Positions 17,588 through 29,031 of a stretch of DNA of 64,000 bases are shown piece after piece. The stretch comes from Draconibacterium mangrovi (GTDB lineage Bacteria > Bacteroidota > Bacteroidia > Bacteroidales > Prolixibacteraceae), in assembly GCF_010586825.1 (NCBI RefSeq), contig NZ_JAAAGB010000001.1, positions 1,116,001-1,180,000 of the forward strand, in the 5' to 3' direction. The notes under the pieces are model-generated. The model was given only the letters and a program-made list of their open reading frames with translations. It had not been told where the DNA came from and searched no databases. The translations under genes were made by a program, and so were the position numbers. Within the stretch, counting starts at the first letter, position 1, and each line of letters starts with the position of its first letter.

Positions 17588-18118
17588 ATGGCAACAAAAA
17601 ATAAATATCGCATATTAATCTGGGTAGTTGTAATTCTGGCAGCCACAAACCTGTCGATGGGAATTTCGTTTTGGTACCACAAACAACAGGATAAAAAAGC
17701 AGCCGGAGCGCAACAACAAGTTGAAATGCCCTCGGAGCAACGGACGCGTTTTTTCCGCGAGCAGCTGAACCTGCAACCCGATCAGGTCGACTATTTTAGG
17801 GAATTGAACAGAAACTATAACCGGAGTGCACGCCGGATATCGGATCAACTTTCACTTCTTCGTGTTGAAATGGTGGAGGAAATGGGAAAAGCAGAGACTG
17901 ACACCACGAAACTACACGCTATTTCAAGCGAAATTGGCGAGATGCACAAAACCTTAAAGGATTTGACGATAGATTATTATCTCGATATGAAAGCAGTTTG
18001 CGACGAGAACCAACAGGAGAAACTAAAAGAAATTTTCCTGTCGATGACAAAATTGAAAGAAGACGTTTCTTTACCTCAACGTGGCGGCCGTCGCTTTGGG
18101 CGGCAAAACAGAGAGTAA
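17588..18118 (+). CDS. Membrane-anchored CnrX/Spy-like periplasmic sensor
   Basis: A 176-residue protein with one N-terminal helix (about 9-27) and a periplasmic, almost wholly helical domain. The segment LNLQPDQVDYFRELNRNYN (about 60-78) matches the LTxxQ-like hook of CpxP/Spy/CnrX proteins. In CnrX-type systems such a protein senses metals and acts on the anti-sigma factor; here the gene is 3 bases after the anti-sigma gene, which supports a similar partnership. The metal-binding residues of CnrX are not obvious, so the stimulus is open. The tail is Arg-rich. Confidence 0.75.
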   Translation: MATKNKYRILIWVVVILAATNLSMGISFWYHKQQDKKAAGAQQQVEMPSEQRTRFFREQLNLQPDQVDYFRELNRNYNRSARRISDQLSLLRVEMVEEMGKAETDTTKLHAISSEIGEMHKTLKDLTIDYYLDMKAVCDENQQEKLKEIFLSMTKLKEDVSLPQRGGRRFGRQNRE

Positions 18119-18248
18119 GTAACAACTTAAATTTTGAGAAGATGAAACAGGCATGAATTTTAGCTTTATAAAATCTGCAGGCAAGAATAATTAGAATTCA
18201 TCGGGAGTTACATCTTATACCTTAAAAAAACTAATAAATTTTAATACG

Positions 18249-18815
18249 ATGAAAACAAGCAAGTTAATTAACGTTGCCTGGGTGTTCTTTGCCCTAGTGT
18301 TAACAACAACAACTGTATTTGCTCAACGCGGAAGAAATGCAAATCAGGTACAAAACAACCCAAATCTTCCGTGTCTGGCTCAAATTTCTGACCTGACCGA
18401 GGAACAGAAAACAAGTATTCAGGAACTCGAAGCCAGTCACCAAAAAACGATGGCTGAATTACGTGAACAAAGGCGTTCAACCGTAAATGCGGTTGAGAAA
18501 AGCGAAATCAGAACAGAAATGCTAAAAAACGTGGAGGCGCACCGCAACGAGGTGAAATCGCTTTTAACTGAAGAGCAGCAGGCTCAATACAAGCAGCTTC
18601 AGGCTTCTGCCGGTTATGGCCGAAATCAAGGTTATGGGCAAGGTCGGGGAAATGGCCAATTCAACCGTCAGGGCCGTGGCAACGGTAATGCAGGTTTTCG
18701 TGCACAGGGTAACCGGTGTGGAAACCAGGTTTATGCCAGGGGTCAGGGTCAGGGCCGCGGCAATAAGAACGGGAACCAGGGACGACGTGGAAACTGTATC
18801 AGGTTGAATAACTAA
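18249..18815 (+). CDS. Secreted Spy-like protein with Gly/Arg/Gln-rich tail
   Basis: A 188-residue protein with a signal peptide cleaved near VFAQ (residue 26). Two LTEEQ motifs (about 57 and 103) flank long helices, as in Spy/CpxP family chaperones. From about residue 119 the tail is low in complexity and made mostly of G, R, N and Q with repeats such as GQGRGNG, and includes two cysteines. It follows the sensor gene by 130 bases. The likely site is the periplasm; a metal-binding or chaperone role is inferred from the family. The tail could bind anionic polymers or metals, which the sequence does not settle. Confidence 0.75.
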   Translation: MKTSKLINVAWVFFALVLTTTTVFAQRGRNANQVQNNPNLPCLAQISDLTEEQKTSIQELEASHQKTMAELREQRRSTVNAVEKSEIRTEMLKNVEAHRNEVKSLLTEEQQAQYKQLQASAGYGRNQGYGQGRGNGQFNRQGRGNGNAGFRAQGNRCGNQVYARGQGQGRGNKNGNQGRRGNCIRLNN

Positions 18816-18866
18816 TCGCATTCTGCCGAATGGATAGTGATTAATAAACTTTAAAAATTTTGAAAG

Positions 18867-19610
18867 ATGAAAACAAACATTGTATTTGGTTTAGTGGTAG
18901 TAATGGCAATGCTTTTAAATGCCTGTTCAGAGTCGGCAACCGGTGTTGCAGATGAAGAAATTATGGCCAGCGAAGAAGTAAAAAGTTCGGAAATAACAGC
19001 TTTATTGGGCGACAGCTGTAATTTCTCGGCAGACATAAACGATGCAGACATAGAAGGACTGTTGTTAATGCGCGAAGAGGAGAAGTTTGCACACGATGTT
19101 TATGTAACACTTTATGCAACTCATGGTCTTCCGGTTTTCAATAATATCTCGAAAAGCGAAACAGCACATACATCGGCAATTTTGTATTTAATTAACGGTT
19201 TCGGGCTGGAGGATTCTTATCTTGAAGGTGTAGGCAATTATACAAATGAAACATTTACAGTGCTTTATGCTCAACTAAGCGAACAGGGAAAAACAAGTGT
19301 GGCAGAAGCGCTGAAAGTGGGCGCATTTATCGAAGAATATGATATTGCTGATTTGAAGAACCGGATTGATGCTACAGAAAATGAAACGCTGAAACGGGTT
19401 TATGGTAATCTTTTGCGTGGATCGACATTTCACCTGAAAGCTTTTTCGGCTGTTTTAAACGCAATGGGAGAGAGTTATACGCCAACAGTTATTTCGCAGG
19501 AAGAGTATGACGAAATACGCAGTGGTAATTCAGCTGACGAAAATAGCGACAGTAGCAGCACATTTGTTCCCGGAACCGGAATTTGCGACGGAACCGGGCC
19601 GAATTTCTGA
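18867..19610 (+). CDS. DUF2202 ferritin-like lipoprotein
   Basis: A 247-residue lipoprotein (lipobox LNAC, C20). The DUF2202 core (about 62-220) starts with LLLMREEEKFAHDVY (E70-H76), a helix whose E/H spacing resembles diiron or ferritin-like folds, and continues with ISKSETAHTSAI and GAFIEEYDI. A Ser/Asp-rich linker precedes a short C-terminal piece with one cysteine. It lies 51 bases after the Spy-like gene and has a strong terminator behind it. Metal binding is inferred from the fold; activity of DUF2202 is not established. Confidence 0.85.
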   Translation: MKTNIVFGLVVVMAMLLNACSESATGVADEEIMASEEVKSSEITALLGDSCNFSADINDADIEGLLLMREEEKFAHDVYVTLYATHGLPVFNNISKSETAHTSAILYLINGFGLEDSYLEGVGNYTNETFTVLYAQLSEQGKTSVAEALKVGAFIEEYDIADLKNRIDATENETLKRVYGNLLRGSTFHLKAFSAVLNAMGESYTPTVISQEEYDEIRSGNSADENSDSSSTFVPGTGICDGTGPNF

Positions 19611-19657
19611 CTCAGGGACGATGAAAATTTCATAAATAATTATTATGAAATTGGGCG

Positions 19658-19688
19658 AGCTCCGGATTTTAATCCGGGGCTTTTTTTT
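19658..19688 (+). terminator. Rho-independent terminator after the first DUF2202 gene
   Basis: A GC-rich stem (AGCTCCGGATT with AATCCGGGGCT) is followed by eight T. The same stem, nearly base for base, occurs on the minus strand at 206-233. Confidence 0.85.
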
Positions 19689-19740
19689 GCACAAGTTTTT
19701 TGTGTTTCCGGTGTCTAACTGGTAAATAAAATACTTAGAA

Positions 19741-20400
19741 ATGAAAACATTAAAGTTTTATTCAGCATTGTTATTGCTTACGTTTTTTGTAGGCCTTGGC
19801 TCCCCGTTTGCTAATCCTTTAACCGAAAAAGAAAAGGCAGGTTTACAATTAATGCGTGAAGAAGAAAAGCTCGCCCACGATGTTTACACCGTACTTTACG
19901 AGAAATGGCAATTAATGCCTTTTAGTAATATTACCCGCAGCGAAACCCGCCATTTTGAGGCAATAGGTTTTCTGCTTGAAACTTATAAGCTGGAGGATCC
20001 GGCCTATGAAGAACCCGGAAAATTCAGAAATAAGGAGCTGGCAGCACTATATGATTCGCTCGTTGCAAAAGGATCAGAATCGTTGGTGGCAGCACTCGAG
20101 GTTGGCGCTTTTATCGAAGAGGTGGATATTAAAGATTTGCAGGAGCTGCTTGTAGCAAAACCCGAAGCACAGATTGCAACAGTTTACGAAAACCTGTTGT
20201 GGGGATCAGAAAATCATATTCGGGCATTTACCCGCAACTTATCGTTTCGCGATCAGGAGTATACACCAAAAGTTTTATCGGAAGCAACTTATGCCGAAAT
20301 TGTTGGAGCTAATCAACAACATGGCCAAAATGGAAAAAGAATGGGCCAGCGGGCTTGTGGCGTGTGCAACGGAGGTGGAGCCAAATGCAGGAACAGGTAA
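19741..20400 (+). CDS. DUF2202 ferritin-like exported protein
   Basis: A 219-residue paralogue of the preceding gene product. A signal peptide (about 1-25) replaces the lipobox, and the core repeats the motif LQLMREEEKLAHDVY (E40-H46), ITRSETRHFEAI and GAFIEEVDI. The C-terminus has a short cysteine cluster, CGVCNGGGAKC, that may bind metal. A terminator separates it from the first copy, so it either has its own promoter or is reached by read-through. Probably periplasmic; a tandem duplication within the envelope-stress cluster. Confidence 0.85.
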   Translation: MKTLKFYSALLLLTFFVGLGSPFANPLTEKEKAGLQLMREEEKLAHDVYTVLYEKWQLMPFSNITRSETRHFEAIGFLLETYKLEDPAYEEPGKFRNKELAALYDSLVAKGSESLVAALEVGAFIEEVDIKDLQELLVAKPEAQIATVYENLLWGSENHIRAFTRNLSFRDQEYTPKVLSEATYAEIVGANQQHGQNGKRMGQRACGVCNGGGAKCRNR

Positions 20401-20410
20401 ACAGCGAATC

Positions 20411-20451
20411 GAAAACCGGCAGCGGTTGGTTTTATCCGGCTACCGGTTTTC
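20411..20451. terminator. Bidirectional terminator between convergent genes
   Basis: GAAAACCGG (20411-20419) pairs with CCGGTTTTC (20443-20451) and further bases pair inside. It lies between the plus-strand DUF2202 gene and the minus-strand TPR gene, so it can serve both. Confidence 0.6.
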
Positions 20452-20483
20452 AGGCTGAACTTTTTGCTTTAACAATACTGTTT

Positions 20484-21110
20484 TTACTTGATTAGCATTA
20501 ATCCCTCGTTTGCCGAAGCGTCGTTGGGATTATTGAGTTTAACCTTGTTGAAAAGTACTTTTGCCTGGTTGTAGTTTCCGAGAAAATAAGAGGTCCATCC
20601 CAGCATCAGCAGTCCATCGTAGCCAAACGGATAAAGGTCGACCACCTTTTTAAACAAAGGATAAGCCTTGTCGTAATCCTTTCGGCCATAGTAAACCAGG
20701 CCAAGCCGATACATGGCCACCGTATTGTTCGGGTTGATTTCAAGTATTTTATTGTAAAGATCGATAACCTCATTCCATTTGCCCAGTGCAGCCAGAGGAA
20801 GAATCAGACCAAATCGTGATTCCTCGGCATAAGGTTTTAGTTTTTGTGCATTGCTGTAAAAGATAACCGACTCATCAAAAAGCCCGGCATTGTAATTCAG
20901 CCACCCTAAACGCAGATTTATTTCATACGACGATTCATCGTAAACTTTCTTTAACGGATCCATTGCCGCCGAAAAGTCGCCGTTTTTTTCAAACTCGTAA
21001 CTTCTTCCGAAAGCGCTTTCCAGAGCTTCCTGGTTTGCCTGTGCAAAAACGTTTGTTGCCGTTGCCGCAAAAAGCAATAGGGCCAGTAATTTATTTCTTA
21101 AAATTTCCAT
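20484..21110 (-). CDS. Exported TPR protein, last gene of the PqqD operon
   Basis: A 208-residue protein with a signal peptide (about 1-24, ends VFAQ) and about four to five tetratricopeptide-like helix pairs, for example NTVAMYRLGLVYYGRKDYDK and the following unit. Its start overlaps the barrel gene by 13 bases, which indicates translational coupling. TPR proteins in the periplasm usually hold complexes together; here it may connect the outer-membrane barrel to the inner-membrane fusion protein (inference). No catalytic motif is present. Confidence 0.85.
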   Translation of the reverse strand: MEILRNKLLALLLFAATATNVFAQANQEALESAFGRSYEFEKNGDFSAAMDPLKKVYDESSYEINLRLGWLNYNAGLFDESVIFYSNAQKLKPYAEESRFGLILPLAALGKWNEVIDLYNKILEINPNNTVAMYRLGLVYYGRKDYDKAYPLFKKVVDLYPFGYDGLLMLGWTSYFLGNYNQAKVLFNKVKLNNPNDASANEGLMLIK

Positions 21111-22417
21111 GATATTCCTGCTGTAATTGTATGTTTTATGTAGTTGTACGCTTTCTCGTTAAAAAGGGTGGCGTTTTGGTAAACCCTGTACTGTTCGCTT
21201 ACATCCTGATTCAGATAGCGCACCACAAACTGGTATCGTTTAGCAAAAGGGAAATAAATACTTCCCATGTATTTTCGGGTGGAACGGCCCGGAAAGTTGG
21301 CAATAACATAACCCCCCGACTCGATAAAGTTTTCCATTTCTCCGTTCAGGTAATTGCCGTAAAAGTGAAACTGCCCCAGCTGGAATCCGCCCGACAGGCC
21401 AAAAGTATTGTAGCCAAAACTGTTGTCGTTGTCGCTTCTAAAGTAAACACGCGGAGTTAAATACAGATTGCTGTTTGAAAGCGGGTATATGGTTAACCAG
21501 GCCGAAGCTTGTTTAAATCCCTCGTTGGCAATATTGGCAAGGTTAATTTCGGCGCCGGGCGAAAAATTACCCCAGTTGGTCCAGACAGACGTTGTAAAAA
21601 TGTAATCGGAAAATTTATAGCTTGAAGTATAAAAGGTATTTGGATCGTAATTGCCCAGAAGTAATGCCGATTTACCCCAGGTAATGTTCATTGACGGGGA
21701 AAAATACAATTTTCCAAGCGCAAAAACCGGATTCAGGAAATACTGATTTTGTTTTACATCGATTTGGAAATTATAACGCGAGCCCCAAAAAAGTTGCTCC
21801 ATCTTGTCAGTTCCAACATGCGTTAGATTATGATTCATAATTACCCCCGGTGCAATTTGATGGCTGTAATCCAACGATTCAAAATGGTAGTTCTTAAAAA
21901 AGAAAGCTTCTCCGTAGTCCGGGCCAACTTCCAAATCGTTATGCATGTTGCTTCCCAGCAGTTGATCAAAATCGGGATTCCAGCTGTAGCCTCCTTCAAT
22001 TGCAATCTGCAGAGGTTTCATTTTTTGGAAATTGATTTTTTGTTGTAATTCATTGCTAAAATCCACTGCCAGTTTGCTGGCTTCCACATATCTGCCCGTA
22101 TACACCAGACTATAATACAGGTACTCCTGCAGCCACTCAAAATGCTGGTCGTTTTCCCAAGCTTTAAAAAACCACTCACTGGCTTTCCGGTATTTTCCCA
22201 GGTTATACCAGGCAATTCCGGTGCGAGCCTGCAAATAAAAATATTCAATGCCTTTTTCGCAGGCCTCATTGTTGAATTCAATCAACTCTTTCCATTTTTT
22301 TTGCTGAAAAAGTTCGTACGACTTTTTGTCTACTTCGGTATAATTCAAGTTTGTTTGTGCATTTAATACCGAAAAAACAGCCATGAATAGTAGTACTGTT
22401 ACAGTTCGTTTTGACAT
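21098..22417 (-). CDS. TPR-outer-membrane beta-barrel protein (YaiO-like)
   Basis: A 439-residue protein: signal peptide 1-20 (ends LNAQ), TPR-like helices at about 25-130 (IAWYNLGKYRKASEWFFKAW), then some 300 residues of alternating beta-strands with many Tyr, Phe and Trp, ending in TAGISWKF, a typical barrel terminus. The layout resembles YaiO-type proteins found in polysaccharide or envelope clusters. The gene overlaps its upstream neighbour by 19 bases. In this operon it may form the outer-membrane exit for the product (inference). Confidence 0.8.
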   Translation of the reverse strand: MSKRTVTVLLFMAVFSVLNAQTNLNYTEVDKKSYELFQQKKWKELIEFNNEACEKGIEYFYLQARTGIAWYNLGKYRKASEWFFKAWENDQHFEWLQEYLYYSLVYTGRYVEASKLAVDFSNELQQKINFQKMKPLQIAIEGGYSWNPDFDQLLGSNMHNDLEVGPDYGEAFFFKNYHFESLDYSHQIAPGVIMNHNLTHVGTDKMEQLFWGSRYNFQIDVKQNQYFLNPVFALGKLYFSPSMNITWGKSALLLGNYDPNTFYTSSYKFSDYIFTTSVWTNWGNFSPGAEINLANIANEGFKQASAWLTIYPLSNSNLYLTPRVYFRSDNDNSFGYNTFGLSGGFQLGQFHFYGNYLNGEMENFIESGGYVIANFPGRSTRKYMGSIYFPFAKRYQFVVRYLNQDVSEQYRVYQNATLFNEKAYNYIKHTITAGISWKF

Positions 22418-24624
22418 GTTATATTGATCTTTGCTTCGTTAAAATTCACTGAAATCTGAATCACATTCTCCTGCGAAATTTTGATTTCTATCTCATACGT
22501 ATTCACCGTTTTTCCAAGTATCTTTTTGTTGATTTCGGCCTTCATTTGCACATCGCCCGATGAAAGAATATCTCCGGCATCTTTGATGACAAGTTTATAA
22601 TCGATATTCAGAAAGAGATAAAGCGGTGCTATAAAATCCTGGAAGAACTTTAGTGCCCCTGTAAACATCAGGTTAATCGGGATGGAATCATTAATTCGGC
22701 TATTGGCAAGGAACCCGATTGGAACATTAAAAAGCGCCACAAAAAACCAGTAGAGTGGCGAATATTTGGTTCCGGTAAAATTGGTGAAATAATGCTGCTC
22801 GTCGTTGTTGTGGAGGTAAGCCAGACTTTGGTCTTTGTCGCATTTAATAAAAGTGCTGTTGTACACATCGGTTTGAACCAGCCACGAGAAATCGCCGGCC
22901 ATTTTTTGCCACTTTTCTTTTGGCGAATCAACTTCAACGCTAATATTCATCCGTTGCCCGGGAATAAAATGCAGCGCCTTGGATAGCAACTCGTTTTTTA
23001 CCGGATTAACTACAATATCGTCTTTCTTCGGAAACTCAAAATTCTTTTGTGTATAGCCATTGTTTTCTTTCAGCAGATAATTGACAAAAGGATAATCGAG
23101 CGTTACGGAACCAATATAAGGCGTAACCTGGAACTGAAAGTGCAAATGCGGGTAGGGCGAGCGGCCTGAATTTCCGCAGCGGCCCAGCAGCTGTCCTTTT
23201 TTTACCTGGTCGCCAGCTTTAACCTCCACCGAGTGATATTTTAAGTGGCTGAGTTTGGCATACAGGTAATCGTTGTGTTTTATGATGACTGTATTTCCCC
23301 AGTTTTCTTTAGTGTTTACATCGCCAATGGTGTTGTCTTTAATGTGATTTACAGCCTCAACCACGGTTCCATCGAACGGAGCCAGCACAGCCTTCCCGAA
23401 ACAGTAATAATCTTCGTGAAAATCGCCCGAGCCGTTGTATTGTTCTCCGTTCCGATCGGTTATCACAAAATCCCAGGCATGACGCCAGGCATCTTTGTGT
23501 GTGTATTCGCCGCTGTGTCCCTGACTAACGGTCCACTCGCCTAAAAACGGTAAAGTAGCCGACACCGGATACGCAGCCGGAAACCGTTTTAAATTTCCAG
23601 AATACAGGTAGAGGTTTTTTTCGGGTTTACCTAATTGTACCGGAGTCTCCAGTAATTTTCGTGGTCGTTTTTCGCGTAGTTTCAAAGCATATAAAAACAT
23701 TAAAACCACAATATTGAAGGGTAACGAATAGGCCGATACACGCAAAAGAATAAAAATTTGTTGCGTACTAGTGGTAATTAAAACCACTGCCGGTAACAGC
23801 AGGATGATCCAGCCAAAACTTACGCGCCCCGGAACAAGGTAGTAGCCGCCCAGTGCAATGGCAGTAAGAATATAATTAAAGCCAATAAACGTATAACCCA
23901 GCGAACTAAACTCGATGCCCACCAAGCGGTAAAAAAGAAAGGCCACCGAAAAACCAAGAATGGAAAGCACGAAGGTAATTCGAGAATAAATAAGCAATCC
24001 GATGGCAATGATAATACCTGCAAGCAAGTGACTTTGGAAGAAAATTGCTCCCAGCGAGTGAAAGTAGATCCTCACAAATGAATTGGAAATGTTTTTTTCC
24101 AGAAAGTCGTAAAAATCAACAAAATGTTGTCCGCCCAATGCATACAGTTCGTTGTAGGTAAATATGCCTCGTTCGCTAATATTCAGTGCTGTTAGGTCGC
24201 CTCCCGACAAGGCCACGATCCATATTCCGAACAAAAAAGGAATGCTCAGAAAAGGCAAACCGTATTTTCCGAGTACACCCTGAAAAACAATGGTAATAAA
24301 AAAAGTGACCACGGCAGCAATAACGATAAGCGCATAAACTTCAAAAGATGGCTGATAAAACAGCCCAACTCCCAGGCCAACAAGCAACGCATTATATCCA
24401 TATATGCCGGAACTGATGAGGTATTTGTTATAGCCCAGACCATAGGCCAGCAGGTTTGCTACAAGCACCGCCAAAAGGCCGCCTATACCGGCACCGTAAT
24501 CAAAAAAACTGATTATGATCAACAGCACCGCCAGAAAATTCGAACCTGAAAAAAATACCTGCGAGTAGCTGTTGAGTACCGACTGAACAATTTCTTTTCG
24601 TTTTATGGAAGGAAATGTAATCAT
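22399..24624 (-). CDS. Urea-transporter-like channel fused to M23 peptidase domain
   Basis: A 741-residue fusion. Residues about 10-315 form a urea-transporter domain; the paired family signature appears as GIYGYNALLVGLGVG (73-87) and, in the second half, GFNYILTAIALGG (248-260). Residues about 360-500 form an M23/LytM-like domain with candidate zinc ligands H376 or H382, D385 and the HLH of PHLHFQ (H493, H495). About 240 further residues are unrecognised. UT channels pass urea or small amides. M23 enzymes cut peptidoglycan cross-bridges, and some act only as scaffolds. The start codon follows the decarboxylase stop codon with no gap. No urease gene is near, so a substrate made by the operon is more likely than urea import (inference). 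Confidence 0.85.
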   Translation of the reverse strand: MITFPSIKRKEIVQSVLNSYSQVFFSGSNFLAVLLIIISFFDYGAGIGGLLAVLVANLLAYGLGYNKYLISSGIYGYNALLVGLGVGLFYQPSFEVYALIVIAAVVTFFITIVFQGVLGKYGLPFLSIPFLFGIWIVALSGGDLTALNISERGIFTYNELYALGGQHFVDFYDFLEKNISNSFVRIYFHSLGAIFFQSHLLAGIIIAIGLLIYSRITFVLSILGFSVAFLFYRLVGIEFSSLGYTFIGFNYILTAIALGGYYLVPGRVSFGWIILLLPAVVLITTSTQQIFILLRVSAYSLPFNIVVLMFLYALKLREKRPRKLLETPVQLGKPEKNLYLYSGNLKRFPAAYPVSATLPFLGEWTVSQGHSGEYTHKDAWRHAWDFVITDRNGEQYNGSGDFHEDYYCFGKAVLAPFDGTVVEAVNHIKDNTIGDVNTKENWGNTVIIKHNDYLYAKLSHLKYHSVEVKAGDQVKKGQLLGRCGNSGRSPYPHLHFQFQVTPYIGSVTLDYPFVNYLLKENNGYTQKNFEFPKKDDIVVNPVKNELLSKALHFIPGQRMNISVEVDSPKEKWQKMAGDFSWLVQTDVYNSTFIKCDKDQSLAYLHNNDEQHYFTNFTGTKYSPLYWFFVALFNVPIGFLANSRINDSIPINLMFTGALKFFQDFIAPLYLFLNIDYKLVIKDAGDILSSGDVQMKAEINKKILGKTVNTYEIEIKISQENVIQISVNFNEAKINITCQNEL

Positions 24625-25965
24625 TTATCTTTTCGGATTTTGTTCCAGACTTGTAAGCGTGTCAAGATTCTCTTTTTTGCGAACAATGTGCATTTTCCTC
24701 TCCAAATCGATCATCACAACATTGGGCCTGAAAGTAATGAACTGCATCCACTGTGTCATGTTGTAGGCACCTACCCGTTCGATAACCAGCTTCTCGCCGG
24801 TTTTTACCTGCGGAAAGTTAATGGCATCGCGGATTACATCGATGTTCATACAAAGCGGTCCGTAAATGGTGCTTTCTTCCAGGTGACTGGATAGTTGGCG
24901 TGTTGGGTAAACCCCCAGGTTATACCAGAAAGAGGTAAAAAGCAGGTTTACTCCGGCATCGATTACCATGGTTCTCCGCCCGGTAGTTGATCGTTTATTG
25001 GCCAAAACAGTTGTCAGCAGGTAGCCGGCATCGTCGATCAGTGCCCGGCCGGTTTCCAAAAACAGTACCGGAAGATTTTCGTGCGGAATTTCCGAGGAAA
25101 TCAATGCATTTGAAATGGCTTCGGCATATTCATCAAACGACGGGCAGGTTTCTGTTCCCGGCATGTAAGCACCTTTTAGTGTGTTTTTCGATGCAAATCC
25201 TCCACCCAAATCGATGTATTTCAGCCAGTAATCGAACTTGCGATGCGTTGCCATGTAAAGGTTGGCCAGTTTCGATGCAGCAACTGCATAGGCATTTGCC
25301 GACATAATGTAAGTGCCGATATGTGTATGCAGACCAATCAAATCAAGTTTTTCAGCCAGCATAATCCGGTTAATGGCATTCCAGGCTTCTCCGTTTTCAT
25401 AGTTAAAACCAAAACGGTCCCAAATGGGGTAAATTCCTGCATCGAGGTTAATGCGGATGGCCACCCTTGCTTTTTTATCCAGCTCGCGCGTTACTTTTAT
25501 CAGCAAATACAGTTCATCAAAATGATCGATATGGATACAGGCATTATGTTCGATGGCCAGTTTCAAATCTTCTTCCGATTTTTCGGGGCCATTAAAAAGG
25601 ATATTGGAACCGTTAACGCCTAGTGAAAGAGCTTTCTGAAATTCGAAAGCAGAAACTACTTCTGCCCAGGCACCTTGGTCGTGAAAAATACTGCAAACAG
25701 CATCGAGATAATTTGTTTTATACGACCATGCAAACTGTACTTTCGGGTAGCGGGTTTCAAAAGCCTGTTTGGCTTGGGCAAAGGTATTGCGCATCGTTTT
25801 TTCTGAAAGAACAAATACCGGAGAACCGTACTCTTCCATGATCATTTCAACCGGAATCCCGTCGATATCAGGAATAAACTTTTGCCTCGTAGGCAATCCA
25901 AATTTGGAGGGGATGCCAGCTGTAATCTTGCTGATTACAGGTTTTTCGTATGTTATTTTTGTCAT
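24625..25965 (-). CDS. PLP-dependent decarboxylase, DapDC/ornithine-decarboxylase-like fold
   Basis: A 446-residue fold-type III enzyme. K83 in SYKTNYL is the predicted PLP lysine; HTHIGTYI (about 216-223), the GGGFAS glycine loop and a C-terminal YGPLCMNID motif match the diaminopimelate/ornithine decarboxylase group. An extra N-terminal stretch of about 35 residues comes before the barrel. Being inside an operon with an ATP-grasp ligase and a PqqD-like protein, and away from lysine genes, it probably acts on an amino acid or a ligated amino-acid derivative rather than in lysine synthesis. Substrate unknown; racemase-like activity is possible but less likely given the GPLC motif. Confidence 0.85.
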   Translation of the reverse strand: MTKITYEKPVISKITAGIPSKFGLPTRQKFIPDIDGIPVEMIMEEYGSPVFVLSEKTMRNTFAQAKQAFETRYPKVQFAWSYKTNYLDAVCSIFHDQGAWAEVVSAFEFQKALSLGVNGSNILFNGPEKSEEDLKLAIEHNACIHIDHFDELYLLIKVTRELDKKARVAIRINLDAGIYPIWDRFGFNYENGEAWNAINRIMLAEKLDLIGLHTHIGTYIMSANAYAVAASKLANLYMATHRKFDYWLKYIDLGGGFASKNTLKGAYMPGTETCPSFDEYAEAISNALISSEIPHENLPVLFLETGRALIDDAGYLLTTVLANKRSTTGRRTMVIDAGVNLLFTSFWYNLGVYPTRQLSSHLEESTIYGPLCMNIDVIRDAINFPQVKTGEKLVIERVGAYNMTQWMQFITFRPNVVMIDLERKMHIVRKKENLDTLTSLEQNPKR

Positions 25966-25977
25966 GATTTCTGAGTT

Positions 25978-27024
25978 TTATATTTCCTTATTCATTGATA
26001 TGGCCGCAAATTTTTCGAGGTCAACAATGGCATCGTACGAATAGCGGACGAACATTTTCCCGATTTTATATTTTGTCATCGCTTGTACGTCCATTCCGAG
26101 AGCAAGTTTTACAAGTGCCTCGGGAATATTTTGACCGGCACCAACGGCGAGGTAAACCCAGGCCGGAACGCGTGGATTAATCTCGATGAGGTAATATTCG
26201 CCTCCATTGGTTTTTATCAATTCGAGTTCCATACCGCCTTTCCATTTTGTTTTTGAAATAATGGAACGGGTAAGTTCCATCATCTTTTCGTCGGCAAGTG
26301 TGATGCCACCCCAGGCTTTTCCTTTATCGGTGATGTATTGTTTGCGCATGGGAACAGCGGCAATGGTATTTCCTTTTCCATCGCCCAGTGCAATTACGTT
26401 TACCTCGGTTCCTTTCACAAATTCCTGCGCAATTACCGGAAATCCCCATTTCGATGCGATCGTATGAAAAGCCTGTTTTGCCTGTTCTTCGTTGTGAGCT
26501 ACATAAGCGTCGTAAAACTGGCCTTTTATCATCACCGGGTAGTCATATTTGTCTTCAAGGTCCTTGATCTGCCCCAGAGTACTCATGTTGATACTTCCCG
26601 GCACCTTAATGTCGTATTTCTTGCCAAATTCCGGGAGTTTGTCTTTTTCACGTTCCTGAAACTGTTTCAGGTTGGGCAGAAAAGTCTGAATTCCACGGCT
26701 TCGCAATCGCCCTTCATTTTTCATAAAAGAAAAAAGTTCGGCATCCAGATTTGGAATAAGAACATCGATTTGTTCCTGTTGATGAATATTTTCAATTCGC
26801 TCAATTAACTCATCCGAACCAGATGAAGGATAAGGTATCTGGAAAATTCGGTCGCACAGGTTTTCCATGTAAATTCCCGGTTCCAGGTTTTCATAAACCA
26901 GCCCGATAATGCGGGCATCAAACGCTTCCGATTCTTTAATGCCACGAATAAATGGTACGCCGGGCCCCGGATTATCGGTGTTGTTCAATCCGGTTACAGC
27001 AAGTGTGATTTTTTGCTTGTTCAT
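25978..27024 (-). CDS. ATP-grasp ligase, carbamoyl-phosphate-synthase-like
   Basis: A 348-residue ATP-grasp enzyme. A pre-ATP-grasp Rossmann-like region (about 1-115) is followed by the grasp fold, with the ATP-binding lysine strand YPVMIKG (about 181-187), the hinge EFVKGTEVNV and the metal-binding segment YLIEINPRVPAW (about 287-298), whose E-I-N-P-R supplies magnesium ligands. Such enzymes join a carboxylate to an amine through an acyl phosphate. The gene is 5 bases from the PqqD-like gene and 12 from the decarboxylase. A role in building an amino-acid-derived product, possibly on a carrier, is inferred. Confidence 0.85.
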   Translation of the reverse strand: MNKQKITLAVTGLNNTDNPGPGVPFIRGIKESEAFDARIIGLVYENLEPGIYMENLCDRIFQIPYPSSGSDELIERIENIHQQEQIDVLIPNLDAELFSFMKNEGRLRSRGIQTFLPNLKQFQEREKDKLPEFGKKYDIKVPGSINMSTLGQIKDLEDKYDYPVMIKGQFYDAYVAHNEEQAKQAFHTIASKWGFPVIAQEFVKGTEVNVIALGDGKGNTIAAVPMRKQYITDKGKAWGGITLADEKMMELTRSIISKTKWKGGMELELIKTNGGEYYLIEINPRVPAWVYLAVGAGQNIPEALVKLALGMDVQAMTKYKIGKMFVRYSYDAIVDLEKFAAISMNKEI

Positions 27025-27029
27025 GACTA

Positions 27030-27293
27030 TTATTTGAAATCGAGCGGATTGTCTTGTAAAACAATTTGGTGATGCTTTAACAACGCGCAGAATTCGTAAA
27101 AATCCTTTTCAAACGAAAGGTCATCAATGTCGTATTTCTCCATAACCTCCGCTTTAATCTGATCAAAGCTTTTTTCAGCTTCAATATTTTTCATGAGTTC
27201 CAATGCGAAAGGATTCAGGTTAAATGAATCGCCGGTTCGTGAGTTGAAAACAAATCCGTTGTCGCTTATTTTTATATCCTCTGTGATTTTCAT
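27030..27293 (-). CDS. PqqD-like small protein (peptide-recognition fold)
   Basis: An 87-residue protein with the PqqD pattern: a beta-hairpin (NGFVFNSRTGDSFNLN) followed by helices FALELMKNIEAEKSFDQIKAEVMEKY and a last helix FYEFCALLKHHQ. PqqD-like domains bind precursor peptides and present them to modifying enzymes. It is the first gene of the six-gene minus-strand operon. No obvious precursor peptide lies next to it, and its own C-terminus (DNPLDFK) does not end in Glu as LysW-type carriers do. Either the substrate peptide is elsewhere or the domain serves another binding role. Confidence 0.8.
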   Translation of the reverse strand: MKITEDIKISDNGFVFNSRTGDSFNLNPFALELMKNIEAEKSFDQIKAEVMEKYDIDDLSFEKDFYEFCALLKHHQIVLQDNPLDFK

Positions 27294-27594
27294 TTTACCG
27301 TCTGAATTAAATTATATCACTGGTTTGACACGGCCGGACTTAAAAACTTGCGTGGATAATAAAATTTTATCCAAAGGCACATTTTTCAGGAATTGTAGGG
27401 CTTCCTGTTAATTCAGCAGAAAGAAGTTGATTCGTAGGGTCAGTTTATTTCACGTAAGTATTAAAAATAGGACGAAAATGTTTCTTACAGCTACATAATT
27501 GCTAATAAAGTATAAATTTGTAAGCTCAAAATTCGAAAAGTTAAAAGGCTGTAAAAAGCTGAACAGACAAATTAAAGGCAGAAAAATATACATC
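27294..27594. promoter_or_regulatory. Divergent promoter region of the PqqD operon and asnS
   Basis: A 301-base gap between two divergent transcription units. For asnS a TAnnTTTG match, TAAATTTG, lies at 27513-27520, 74 bases before the ATG, with no clear -33 TTTG at the right distance. I could not assign a -7 box to the PqqD operon. No gene or repeat is visible. Confidence 0.45.
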
Positions 27595-29031
27595 ATGGCA
27601 CGTTTGAAAATTAAAGAGATTCTGAAGAATGGAGAAACAGGCAGCGAAGTTGTTGCCAAAGGTTGGGTAAGGACAAAACGCGGAAGTAAAAATGTAAACT
27701 TTATTGCGCTGAATGACGGATCTACCATTCATAATCTTCAGGTGGTGGTTGATGTTGAAAGTTTCGACGAAGCACTGTTACGCGATATAACAACCGGAGC
27801 AGCAATTGCAGTTACCGGAGAATTGGTAGAATCAGCCGGAAGTGGACAGAATGTTGAGCTGAACGCAAAATCAATTGATTTGCTCGGAAAAGCTGATCCG
27901 GAGAAATATCCGATTCAGCCGAAGAAACACTCGTTGGAGTTTTTGCGCGAAAATGCGCACCTGCGTTTCCGGACCAATACCTTTAGTGCTGTTTTTCGTA
28001 TCCGCCACGCTATGGCATTTGCCATTCATAAATATTTTAACGAAAAAGGATTCAACTACCTGCACACACCAATTGTAACGGCCAGTGATGCCGAGGGAGC
28101 CGGACAGATGTTCCGCGTTTCAACATTGGATGCAAAAAATCCACCGTTAACCGAAGATGGCGAGGTAGATTACAGCCAGGACTTTTTTGGAAAAGCCACC
28201 AACTTGACGGTTTCCGGTCAGTTGGAAGGCGAGTTAGGAGCCTTGGCGCTTGGCGAGATTTATACTTTCGGCCCAACATTCCGTGCCGAGAATTCCAATA
28301 CAACACGTCACCTGGCAGAGTTCTGGATGATCGAACCTGAAATGGCATTTTACGATTTGAAAGACAATATGGATCTTGCGGAAGAATTCTTGAAATATTG
28401 TATTCAGTATGCGCTCGACAATTGTATGGACGATCTGCAGTTTTTGGCACAGCGACTGAAAGAGGAGGAGAAAAATAAACCTCAGGACCAGCGCTCGATG
28501 GATTTGATCGAAAAGCTGGAGTTTGTTCTGAAAAACGATTTTATACGTTTACCATACACCGAGGCCATCGATATTCTGAAAAACTCGAAACCTTATAAAA
28601 AGAAAAAATTCCAGTTCCCTGTTGATTGGGGTGTTGACCTTCAAAGTGAGCACGAACGCTACCTGGTAGAGAAACACTTTAAGTGTCCGGTAATTCTTAT
28701 TAATTACCCAAAAGACATTAAAGCATTCTATATGAAACAGAACACCGATGGTAAAACTGTCGGTGCAATGGATGTACTGTTCCCGGGTATTGGCGAAATT
28801 ATTGGTGGTTCGCAACGTGAGGAAGACCTTGAAAAGCTGACGAAACGTATGGAGGAAATGAATATTCCGACAGAAGAAATGTGGTGGTACCTGGATACGC
28901 GCCGTTTTGGTTCGGTAGTTCACAGTGGTTTTGGCCTTGGCTTCGAGCGCCTTATGCTTTTTGTTACCGGAATGGGCAACATCCGCGATGTAATCGCCTT
29001 TCCGCGTGCACCTAAAAATGCTGAATTTTGA
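27595..29031 (+). CDS. asnS: Asparagine-tRNA ligase
   Basis: A 478-residue class IIb aminoacyl-tRNA synthetase. An OB-fold anticodon-binding domain (about 1-115) is followed by the catalytic core with motif 2 ([20 protein letters not shown]) and motif 3 ([12 protein letters not shown]). GGSQREEDL near 425 is typical of AsnRS rather than AspRS. I choose the ATG at 27595 ([10 protein letters not shown]); a frame opening at 27499 would add 32 basic residues with no homology, and the TAAATTTG box lies within that stretch. Confidence 0.95.

Follow-up and report, generated by a model that had tools for sequence, protein, structure and literature searches.

What could a bacterium make or take up with six tightly packed genes that pair a PqqD-like protein and two amino-acid-type enzymes with a urea channel fused to a peptidase-like domain, an outer-membrane barrel and a tetratricopeptide-repeat (TPR) protein? 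The question is raised by a 64,000-nt stretch of Draconibacterium mangrovi DNA (hereafter the window), whose minus strand carries a head-to-tail series of six open reading frames (ORFs) at 20484-27293. As the original prediction from this DNA had claimed, the genes share one strand and close joints (+5, +12, 0, -19 and -13 in gene order); three of the joints, rather than the two it had counted, are zero or overlapping. Its domain names were borne out as well, by Pfam for the PqqD protein (28.0 bits, over the cut-off of 23.4), the ATP-grasp ligase (ATPgrasp_Ter, 44.1), the pyridoxal-phosphate (PLP) decarboxylase, here called DEC (Orn_Arg_deC_N, 111.3), the fusion of a urea transporter (UT) and an M23 peptidase domain, here called UT-M23 (UT, 182.9; Peptidase_M23, 63.3), and the TPR protein (TPR_2, 68.3), and by a structural model for the barrel.

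The six genes form a conserved system. Among 41 relatives (the window's own genome included), an ATP-grasp query matched 24 at E 1e-3 and reached E 2.2e-131 or better in 20 of them, and 15 of 25 genomes of the window's genus, again counting its own, had a match at E <1e-190; the closest named relative among the matches listed was Draconibacterium sediminis, at 99% in the ATP-grasp protein. Across 395 Bacteroidota genomes the ATP-grasp protein was found at E 1e-30 in 34, and UT-M23, in full-length, truncated or split form, was present in exactly these 34 and absent from the other 361 (Fisher p 7e-50, uncorrected for relatedness). An alignment search with UT-M23 at E 1e-15 gave some match in 83 of the 395 genomes, most of the weaker ones covering one half only. 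The gene set extends beyond the window's genus into other classes of Bacteroidota.

Gene content and order were then read locus by locus. A contig scan with an ATP-grasp alignment matched at least 586 stretches, at least 567 of them encoding a relative; the best 80 were kept, which are the nearest relatives and an uneven sample, and one (L123, with no ATP-grasp ORF above 150 bits) was dropped from the gene-content counts. In the remaining 79 loci PqqD and DEC were always present, UT-M23 in 68, the barrel in 58, the TPR protein in 55 and the complete set of six also in 55. Of the 24 loci that fall short, 20 have less than 6.2 kb of contig left downstream, and four (L085, L117, L120 and L124) have room. 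The 34 phylum loci (33 genomes, one counted twice) all contained PqqD, DEC and UT-M23, with the TPR protein in 30 and the barrel profile in 19. The 80 contig-scan and 34 phylum loci together make up the 114 used for gene order and neighbours. When genes were picked more strictly, 61 of the 114 showed the full six-gene order, and the rest hold subsets in the same order bar one, L120, where an unrelated M23 gene was labelled by the UT-M23 profile. Pairwise distances among ATP-grasp, DEC, UT-M23 and TPR proteins correlated at r 0.87-0.91 over 82 loci (0.68-0.75 for pairs with PqqD), values to which shared ancestry, for which there was no control, contributes. Because both gene co-occurrence and gene order are conserved, chance grouping is excluded. 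The original prediction had expected a true system to keep at least four of the genes together, and 55 of 79 contig-scan loci keep all six; rare co-occurrence elsewhere, which it had named as fatal, was not what we found, as PqqD, ATP-grasp and DEC stand together in 79/79 and 34/34 loci. In a plasmid collection a single ATP-grasp relative was found, a 758-aa hypothetical protein of a Streptomyces plasmid (L182 7998-10274) that is 30% identical in its N-terminal part; the other five genes were not among the annotations nearby.

The exceptions reveal how the system is built. Four genomes whose clusters lack a downstream UT-M23 gene (those of L085, L124 and L120, and G033) were tested. Three of them proved to carry a near-full-length gene at another site, and the fourth only a fragment. 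In the genome of L124 the separate copy is followed by barrel and TPR genes, in that of L085 neither was seen in the 11 kb read, and in G033 the copy lies nearby on the opposite strand. The genome of L120 has only a fragment (model positions 3-93) directly after the decarboxylase gene (G436:C1:364488-364760, about L120 12490-12762), which is the mark of a decayed copy. The genome of L117 has two copies. The separated or decayed copies therefore point to two modules that can part, PqqD-ATP-grasp-DEC and UT-M23-barrel-TPR, which are separable yet found in the same genome in the cases examined. Every genome searched for both ATP-grasp and UT-M23, or for UT-M23 once its ATP-grasp was known, had both or a remnant.

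The chemistry of the first module is best approached through DEC. PLP decarboxylases of the alanine-racemase (AR) fold are recognised by the PLP lysine, the Arg of an EPGR-type motif and a CxxxD motif, and DEC has K83 as the predicted PLP lysine, R307, and C372 and D376 as C372xxxD376, all conserved in at least 90% of 149 aligned rows; its residues indicate an AR-fold PLP decarboxylase with the catalytic apparatus kept. The nearest solved chain is the N-citrylornithine decarboxylase FigC (7kh2, 202 bits), followed by LysA proteins, and BtrK is weaker at 89 bits. The NCBIfam model FslC scored 236 bits, below its 500-bit cut-off, and LysA scored 221.4 bits in the window and 213-248 in the 34 genomes, all below the cut-off of 297.9. 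FigC residues R290, T327, Y331, M355 and Y383 are kept in DEC as R307, T344, Y348, M373 and Y401 (mapping by counting). The citrate contacts of FigC are H357 and R387 in a docking model (PMC7857480). By the same counting these become I375 and Q405 in DEC, each in at least 90% of the 149 rows.

Two known identities were set against these data. A citryl-type siderophore route, with DEC as a citryl-amino-acid decarboxylase, was rejected, as the citrate contacts are lost and a nonribosomal-peptide-synthetase-independent siderophore (NIS) synthetase (IucA/IucC) was found in 0 of the 34 genomes with the operon; E. coli and Haloferax volcanii were positive among 14 controls. DEC as diaminopimelate decarboxylase (LysA) was rejected on its sub-cut-off scores and on a separate protein over the LysA cut-off in 29 of the 34 genomes; the window's own genome (G000) has one at 291.9 bits. 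G071, G156, G164 and G405 yielded no second full-length LysA match, and in these four DEC could itself serve as LysA. By the tests run, DEC is thus probably neither enzyme. The original prediction would have fallen if its enzymes belonged to a known pathway with a fixed substrate, and the family, structure, NIS and LysA tests gave no such match. In the ATP-grasp protein, whose nearest solved chains are the carbamoyl-phosphate synthetase large chain and 2pn1, E268, E281 and N283, which we take to be residues of the metal-binding type, are invariant in 16 rows.

The second module begins with UT-M23. Its UT domain has the complete UT fold in the predicted structure, and scored 124.2 bits with the NCBIfam model urea_trans_yut, below the cut-off of 274.6. 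A functional urea transporter pore has a Glu or Gln in its second half and a Thr in both TxPF motifs. In UT-M23 the former position is alanine (A193) in 33 of 38 rows, versus Glu or Gln in 4/4 stand-alone Bacteroidota UTs, and the two Thr are replaced by Ser at 127 (at least 90% of rows) and 300 (28/38); the first-half pore residue Q22 is kept in 31/38. Judged from sequence, the pore is altered.

Several observations bear on the side of the membrane that the M23 domain faces. Loop charges in UT-M23 mostly alternate, and the stretch that follows the last helix is net-positive in 82% of 38 rows. At L162 10944-13198 UT and M23 are encoded by two ORFs that overlap, and the M23 ORF has no signal peptide. 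Because the UT-M23 gene was found in 1 of 61 genomes searched of that order, horizontal gain in L162 is suggested. Both termini of human UT-B are intracellular (PMC5700210). Together with the complete UT fold, these data make it most likely that the M23 domain faces the cytoplasm, and therefore it is probably not a cell-wall enzyme. The fusion of channel and peptidase that had been predicted stands, both domains being found in one protein by Pfam; the account changes in that the peptidase part most likely lies on the cytoplasmic side. A canonical M23 metal site is HxxxD plus HxH. H376, D385, H460, H493 and H495 are invariant in 38/38 rows, and judged from sequence the HxH motif is kept and the first His displaced (H376 lies nine residues before D385), a departure from the canonical site. 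A stand-alone, probably secreted M23 family is found in Bacteroidota and has a member in the window's genome, and a similarly placed first His was seen in four of the five members read (L187 3805-4770, L188, L189, L191 and L192).

The fifth protein alone had no Pfam match, and 13 of 24 aligned members of its family gave one to TPR_2. Its AlphaFold2 model (mean predicted local distance difference test score, pLDDT, 90.9) has helices at 26-127 and 14 strands of at least 11 residues from 134 to 438, and the chain ends in Phe; one helix is N-terminal and others look TPR-like. The best Foldseek matches were FadL and other outer-membrane barrels, with TM-scores of at most ~0.6, and two BcsC entries were listed. 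The protein is thus predicted to form a barrel in the outer membrane and to carry a TPR domain of its own; the barrel had been foreseen, and the TPR domain was absent from that account. In other lineages a barrel gene without a TPR domain comes after the TPR gene. This second barrel profile matched the barrel part of the first family with an hhalign probability of 95% (E 2.7e-8), and it is found in 17 of 114 loci, at offset +4 in 14 of them.

How might the two modules work together? Our preferred reading, held tentatively and at somewhat less than even confidence, is a dedicated biosynthesis-and-export system for a small amino-acid-derived compound, of which product, carrier and direction are what we infer. 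The PqqD-like protein would present a substrate or carrier in the cytoplasm, and the ATP-grasp enzyme, by the chemistry of its family, would ligate an amino acid to it. The clade of FigC, which includes SbnH, AcsE, MccE and BtrK, acts on conjugated amino acids (PMC7857480), and DEC would likewise strip the alpha-carboxylate from the conjugated amino acid; the order, ligation and then decarboxylation, is proposed because of this clade. The M23 domain, whose orientation is supported, may then cut the finished product off its carrier at the cytoplasmic mouth of the channel. By analogy, a hydrolase in this place suggests that release could be coupled to passage; in pearlin biosynthesis a membrane-bound protease frees the finished residue from its carrier peptide (PMC9303977). 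The modified urea channel would lead to the periplasm, and the TPR-barrel and TPR proteins, whose folds come from models, may carry the product across the outer membrane. In a simpler, carrier-free form, two small molecules would be ligated and the product trimmed by the M23 domain. The most specific version, an assembly line on an unlinked carrier in which M23 at the urea-channel mouth couples proteolytic release to passage and the product leaves through the TPR-barrel, we regard as unlikely to hold in full.

Several results weigh against the export reading. No convincing carrier or precursor peptide was found in the 1 kb upstream of 96 loci, nor in gaps of at least 60 bases or the 0.9 kb downstream (187 regions, forward strand). 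Short ORFs did recur upstream; in the three largest groups (of 21, 18 and 14) longer ORFs enclose 18, 17 and 10 of them, and these groups are therefore taken for readings in another frame. A further group, from 3 loci, is enclosed by no longer ORF. A local precursor of a ribosomally synthesised and post-translationally modified peptide (RiPP) was thus rejected, and a distant gene could still encode one. UT channels pass planar urea-sized molecules (PMC5700210), and therefore a larger conjugate could pass only if the alterations have widened the pore. For a urea-sized product, in turn, it is not obvious why the system would require an outer-membrane barrel of its own. By eye, the five stand-alone M23 relatives that were read begin with what looks like a signal peptide or a lipoprotein signal, which places their action outside the cytoplasm. 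The split gene of L162 is a single case, and because its two ORFs use different frames it may have arisen through an indel.

The same parts could instead serve uptake or salvage: the barrel and UT would import a urea- or amide-like nutrient or a small peptide, the cytosolic M23 domain would hydrolyse it, and the ATP-grasp enzyme and decarboxylase would use the pieces. UT channels are passive and work in both directions, a cytosolic hydrolase at the channel mouth suits capture as much as release, and the top barrel matches in Foldseek were FadL uptake proteins, at low TM-score. Receptor-like and ammonia-lyase-like neighbour clusters (by eye) occur in 4 loci each, but at offsets of at least four genes from the operon, and the 40 neighbour clusters listed include neither a binding protein nor a catabolic gene with a constant place next to it. 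An ATP-using ligase with a PqqD protein also looks biosynthetic rather than catabolic. Plain urea use is unlikely because the urease alpha subunit is rare in these genomes and because the pore Glu/Gln is Ala in 33/38 rows. Urea uptake for urease was rejected, as 6 of the 34 operon genomes were over the urease cut-off, one strongly and five marginally. On balance we consider uptake or salvage rather unlikely.

With export still preferred, the neighbouring genes call for two further comparisons. Of the 114 loci, 24 encode a type IX cargo protein of ~260-280 aa (11 S264 and 13 S280), in 23 cases no more than 2.5 kb from the cluster; the cargo genes lie inside it in L111, L133, L145 and L146 and upstream of PqqD in L168-L176 and L178. 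The two cargo families are related (hhalign 97%), partly through their common secretion tail. A family of HGSNAT-like membrane acyltransferases, identified by Pfam on two members, is found in 8 of 114 loci and in L208, and stands beside the UT-M23 module at L208 790-1827 and L117 12543-13586. Both recurrences would suit a system that puts a decarboxylated amino-acid group onto an envelope polymer or a secreted protein, with a periplasmic M23 domain working on peptidoglycan or the polymer. TPR-barrel proteins are typical of polymer export, and the stand-alone M23 relatives look secreted, both of which fit such envelope modification. UT topology and loop charges nevertheless place the M23 domain in the cytoplasm, and the accessory genes occur in a minority of loci, so that we think this explanation improbable.

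The second comparison concerns metals. An AraC regulator with a Cys-rich N-terminus (a metal-binding-like motif by eye; the AraC helix-turn-helix by Pfam in one member) is found in 35 of 114 loci; it is PqqD's immediate upstream neighbour in 24 of 29 scored, and 19 of those 24 share its strand. DUF2202 genes are found in 21 of 114 loci, and of 19 proteins scored 11 are next upstream of PqqD, 11 on the same strand. A Metal_resist-family cluster recurs in 4 loci, and Metal_resist and resistance-nodulation-division (RND) efflux-type clusters in 4 to 6 each. These neighbours, and the nearness of DEC to a siderophore decarboxylase, would agree with a metallophore, that is, a product that chelates metal and is made under metal regulation. 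The Cys motif is, however, incompletely conserved, the citrate ligands of FigC are lost with no NIS synthetase in the 34 genomes, and a search of 42 operon genomes found DUF2202 in 8, of which 7 belong to the window's genus. In these 7, which are all of that genus that were searched, at least one copy lies within ~10 kb of the operon (coordinates read by the author), and in G151 it is ~94 kb away. A metallophore or metal-stress role thus seems very unlikely. The AraC, DUF2202, cargo and acyltransferase genes are accessory and lineage-bound.

Should the operon indeed make and export a compound, one deletion strain could be enough to reveal an undescribed metabolite. UT-M23 would contradict two common assumptions, namely that M23 domains do extracytoplasmic cell-wall work and that urea-transporter folds serve urea only. 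If release and passage are indeed coupled, UT-M23 would set two precedents, as no cytoplasmic M23 peptidase and no urea-transporter-family channel gated by a peptidase is known to us.

Features of the window are collected in Table 1. The operon faces a divergent ORF, named by eye as asparagine-tRNA-ligase-like (asnS-like), which begins at 27499. Promoter-like matches in the region between them were at chance level (12 found versus 14.5 expected), and terminator-like matches numbered 16 versus 8.5 expected. A known RNA element near the operon was rejected, with 0 Rfam matches at the gathering threshold in 18000-28500, and so was anti-phage defence, with 0 PADLOC families for the six proteins at E 0.01.

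Table 1. Positions of the operon genes and adjoining features in the window.
Feature	Position	Strand	Basis
LTXXQ-motif (Spy/CpxP-like) secreted-type protein beside the DUF2202 pair	18249-18815	+	Pfam
Two tandem DUF2202 genes converging on the operon, accessory	18867-19610 and 19741-20400 (span 18867-20400)	+	Whole-genome DUF2202 search
TPR protein, 208 aa, signal-peptide-like N-terminus (by eye)	20484-21110	-	Pfam TPR_2
Predicted outer-membrane beta-barrel with N-terminal TPR domain, 439 aa, signal-peptide-like start (by eye)	21098-22417	-	AlphaFold2 model
UT-M23, 741 aa: UT ~1-346, M23 ~350-520, C-terminal beta-rich part ~530-741	22399-24624	-	Pfam UT, Peptidase_M23
AR-fold PLP decarboxylase (DEC), 446 aa	24625-25965	-	Pfam Orn_Arg_deC_N
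ATP-grasp ligase, carbamoyl-phosphate-synthase-like group, 348 aa	25978-27024	-	Pfam ATPgrasp_Ter / ATP-grasp_3
PqqD-family small protein (RiPP-recognition-element type), 87 aa	27030-27293	-	Pfam PqqD
Intergenic region between operon and divergent asnS-like gene, presumed promoter	27294-27498	.	ORF positions

Judged by the literature and family libraries searched, the whole system fits none of the described families tested, and its parts are known folds. No description of the gene set was found in a literature search limited to open-licence papers, and related papers may hold one. Like the exporters PgaA and BcsC, the operon barrel has a TPR part followed by an outer-membrane barrel; unlike them it has 14 long strands and ~100 residues of TPR helices, and no polysaccharide synthase is among the six proteins. 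From M23/LytM peptidoglycan endopeptidases UT-M23 differs in its displaced first metal-ligand His and its likely cytoplasmic place, and from the urea transporters dvUT and UT-B in its pore (Glu/Gln to Ala, Thr to Ser) and in the fused M23 and C-terminal domains.

Three biosynthetic routes can be compared as well. In the pearlin route an amino acid is modified on a carrier and freed by a membrane-bound protease (PMC9303977), which resembles what is proposed for the operon. None of the six proteins, however, had a PEARL-type family match (Pfam and NCBIfam, E 0.1), no carrier peptide was found locally, and the operon's protease would be an M23 domain on a channel. In butirosin biosynthesis BtrJ is presumably the ATP-grasp ligase. 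BtrI, BtrJ and BtrK combine a carrier protein of similar size, a ligase and an AR-fold decarboxylase that acts on a carrier-bound amino acid (PMC7857480). The small protein there is an acyl-carrier protein, whereas that of the operon is PqqD-like, and BtrK matches DEC less well than FigC does. The rhizoferrin pair FigA/FigC (FslA/FslC) differs in its NIS synthetase, which the operon genomes lack, in R387 and H357 of FigC, for which DEC has Q405 and I375, and in transport, where a major facilitator superfamily gene stands in place of UT-M23 and the barrel. What it would share with the operon is the order of events: a ligase acts first, and an AR-fold PLP decarboxylase of the same clade then works on the conjugate.

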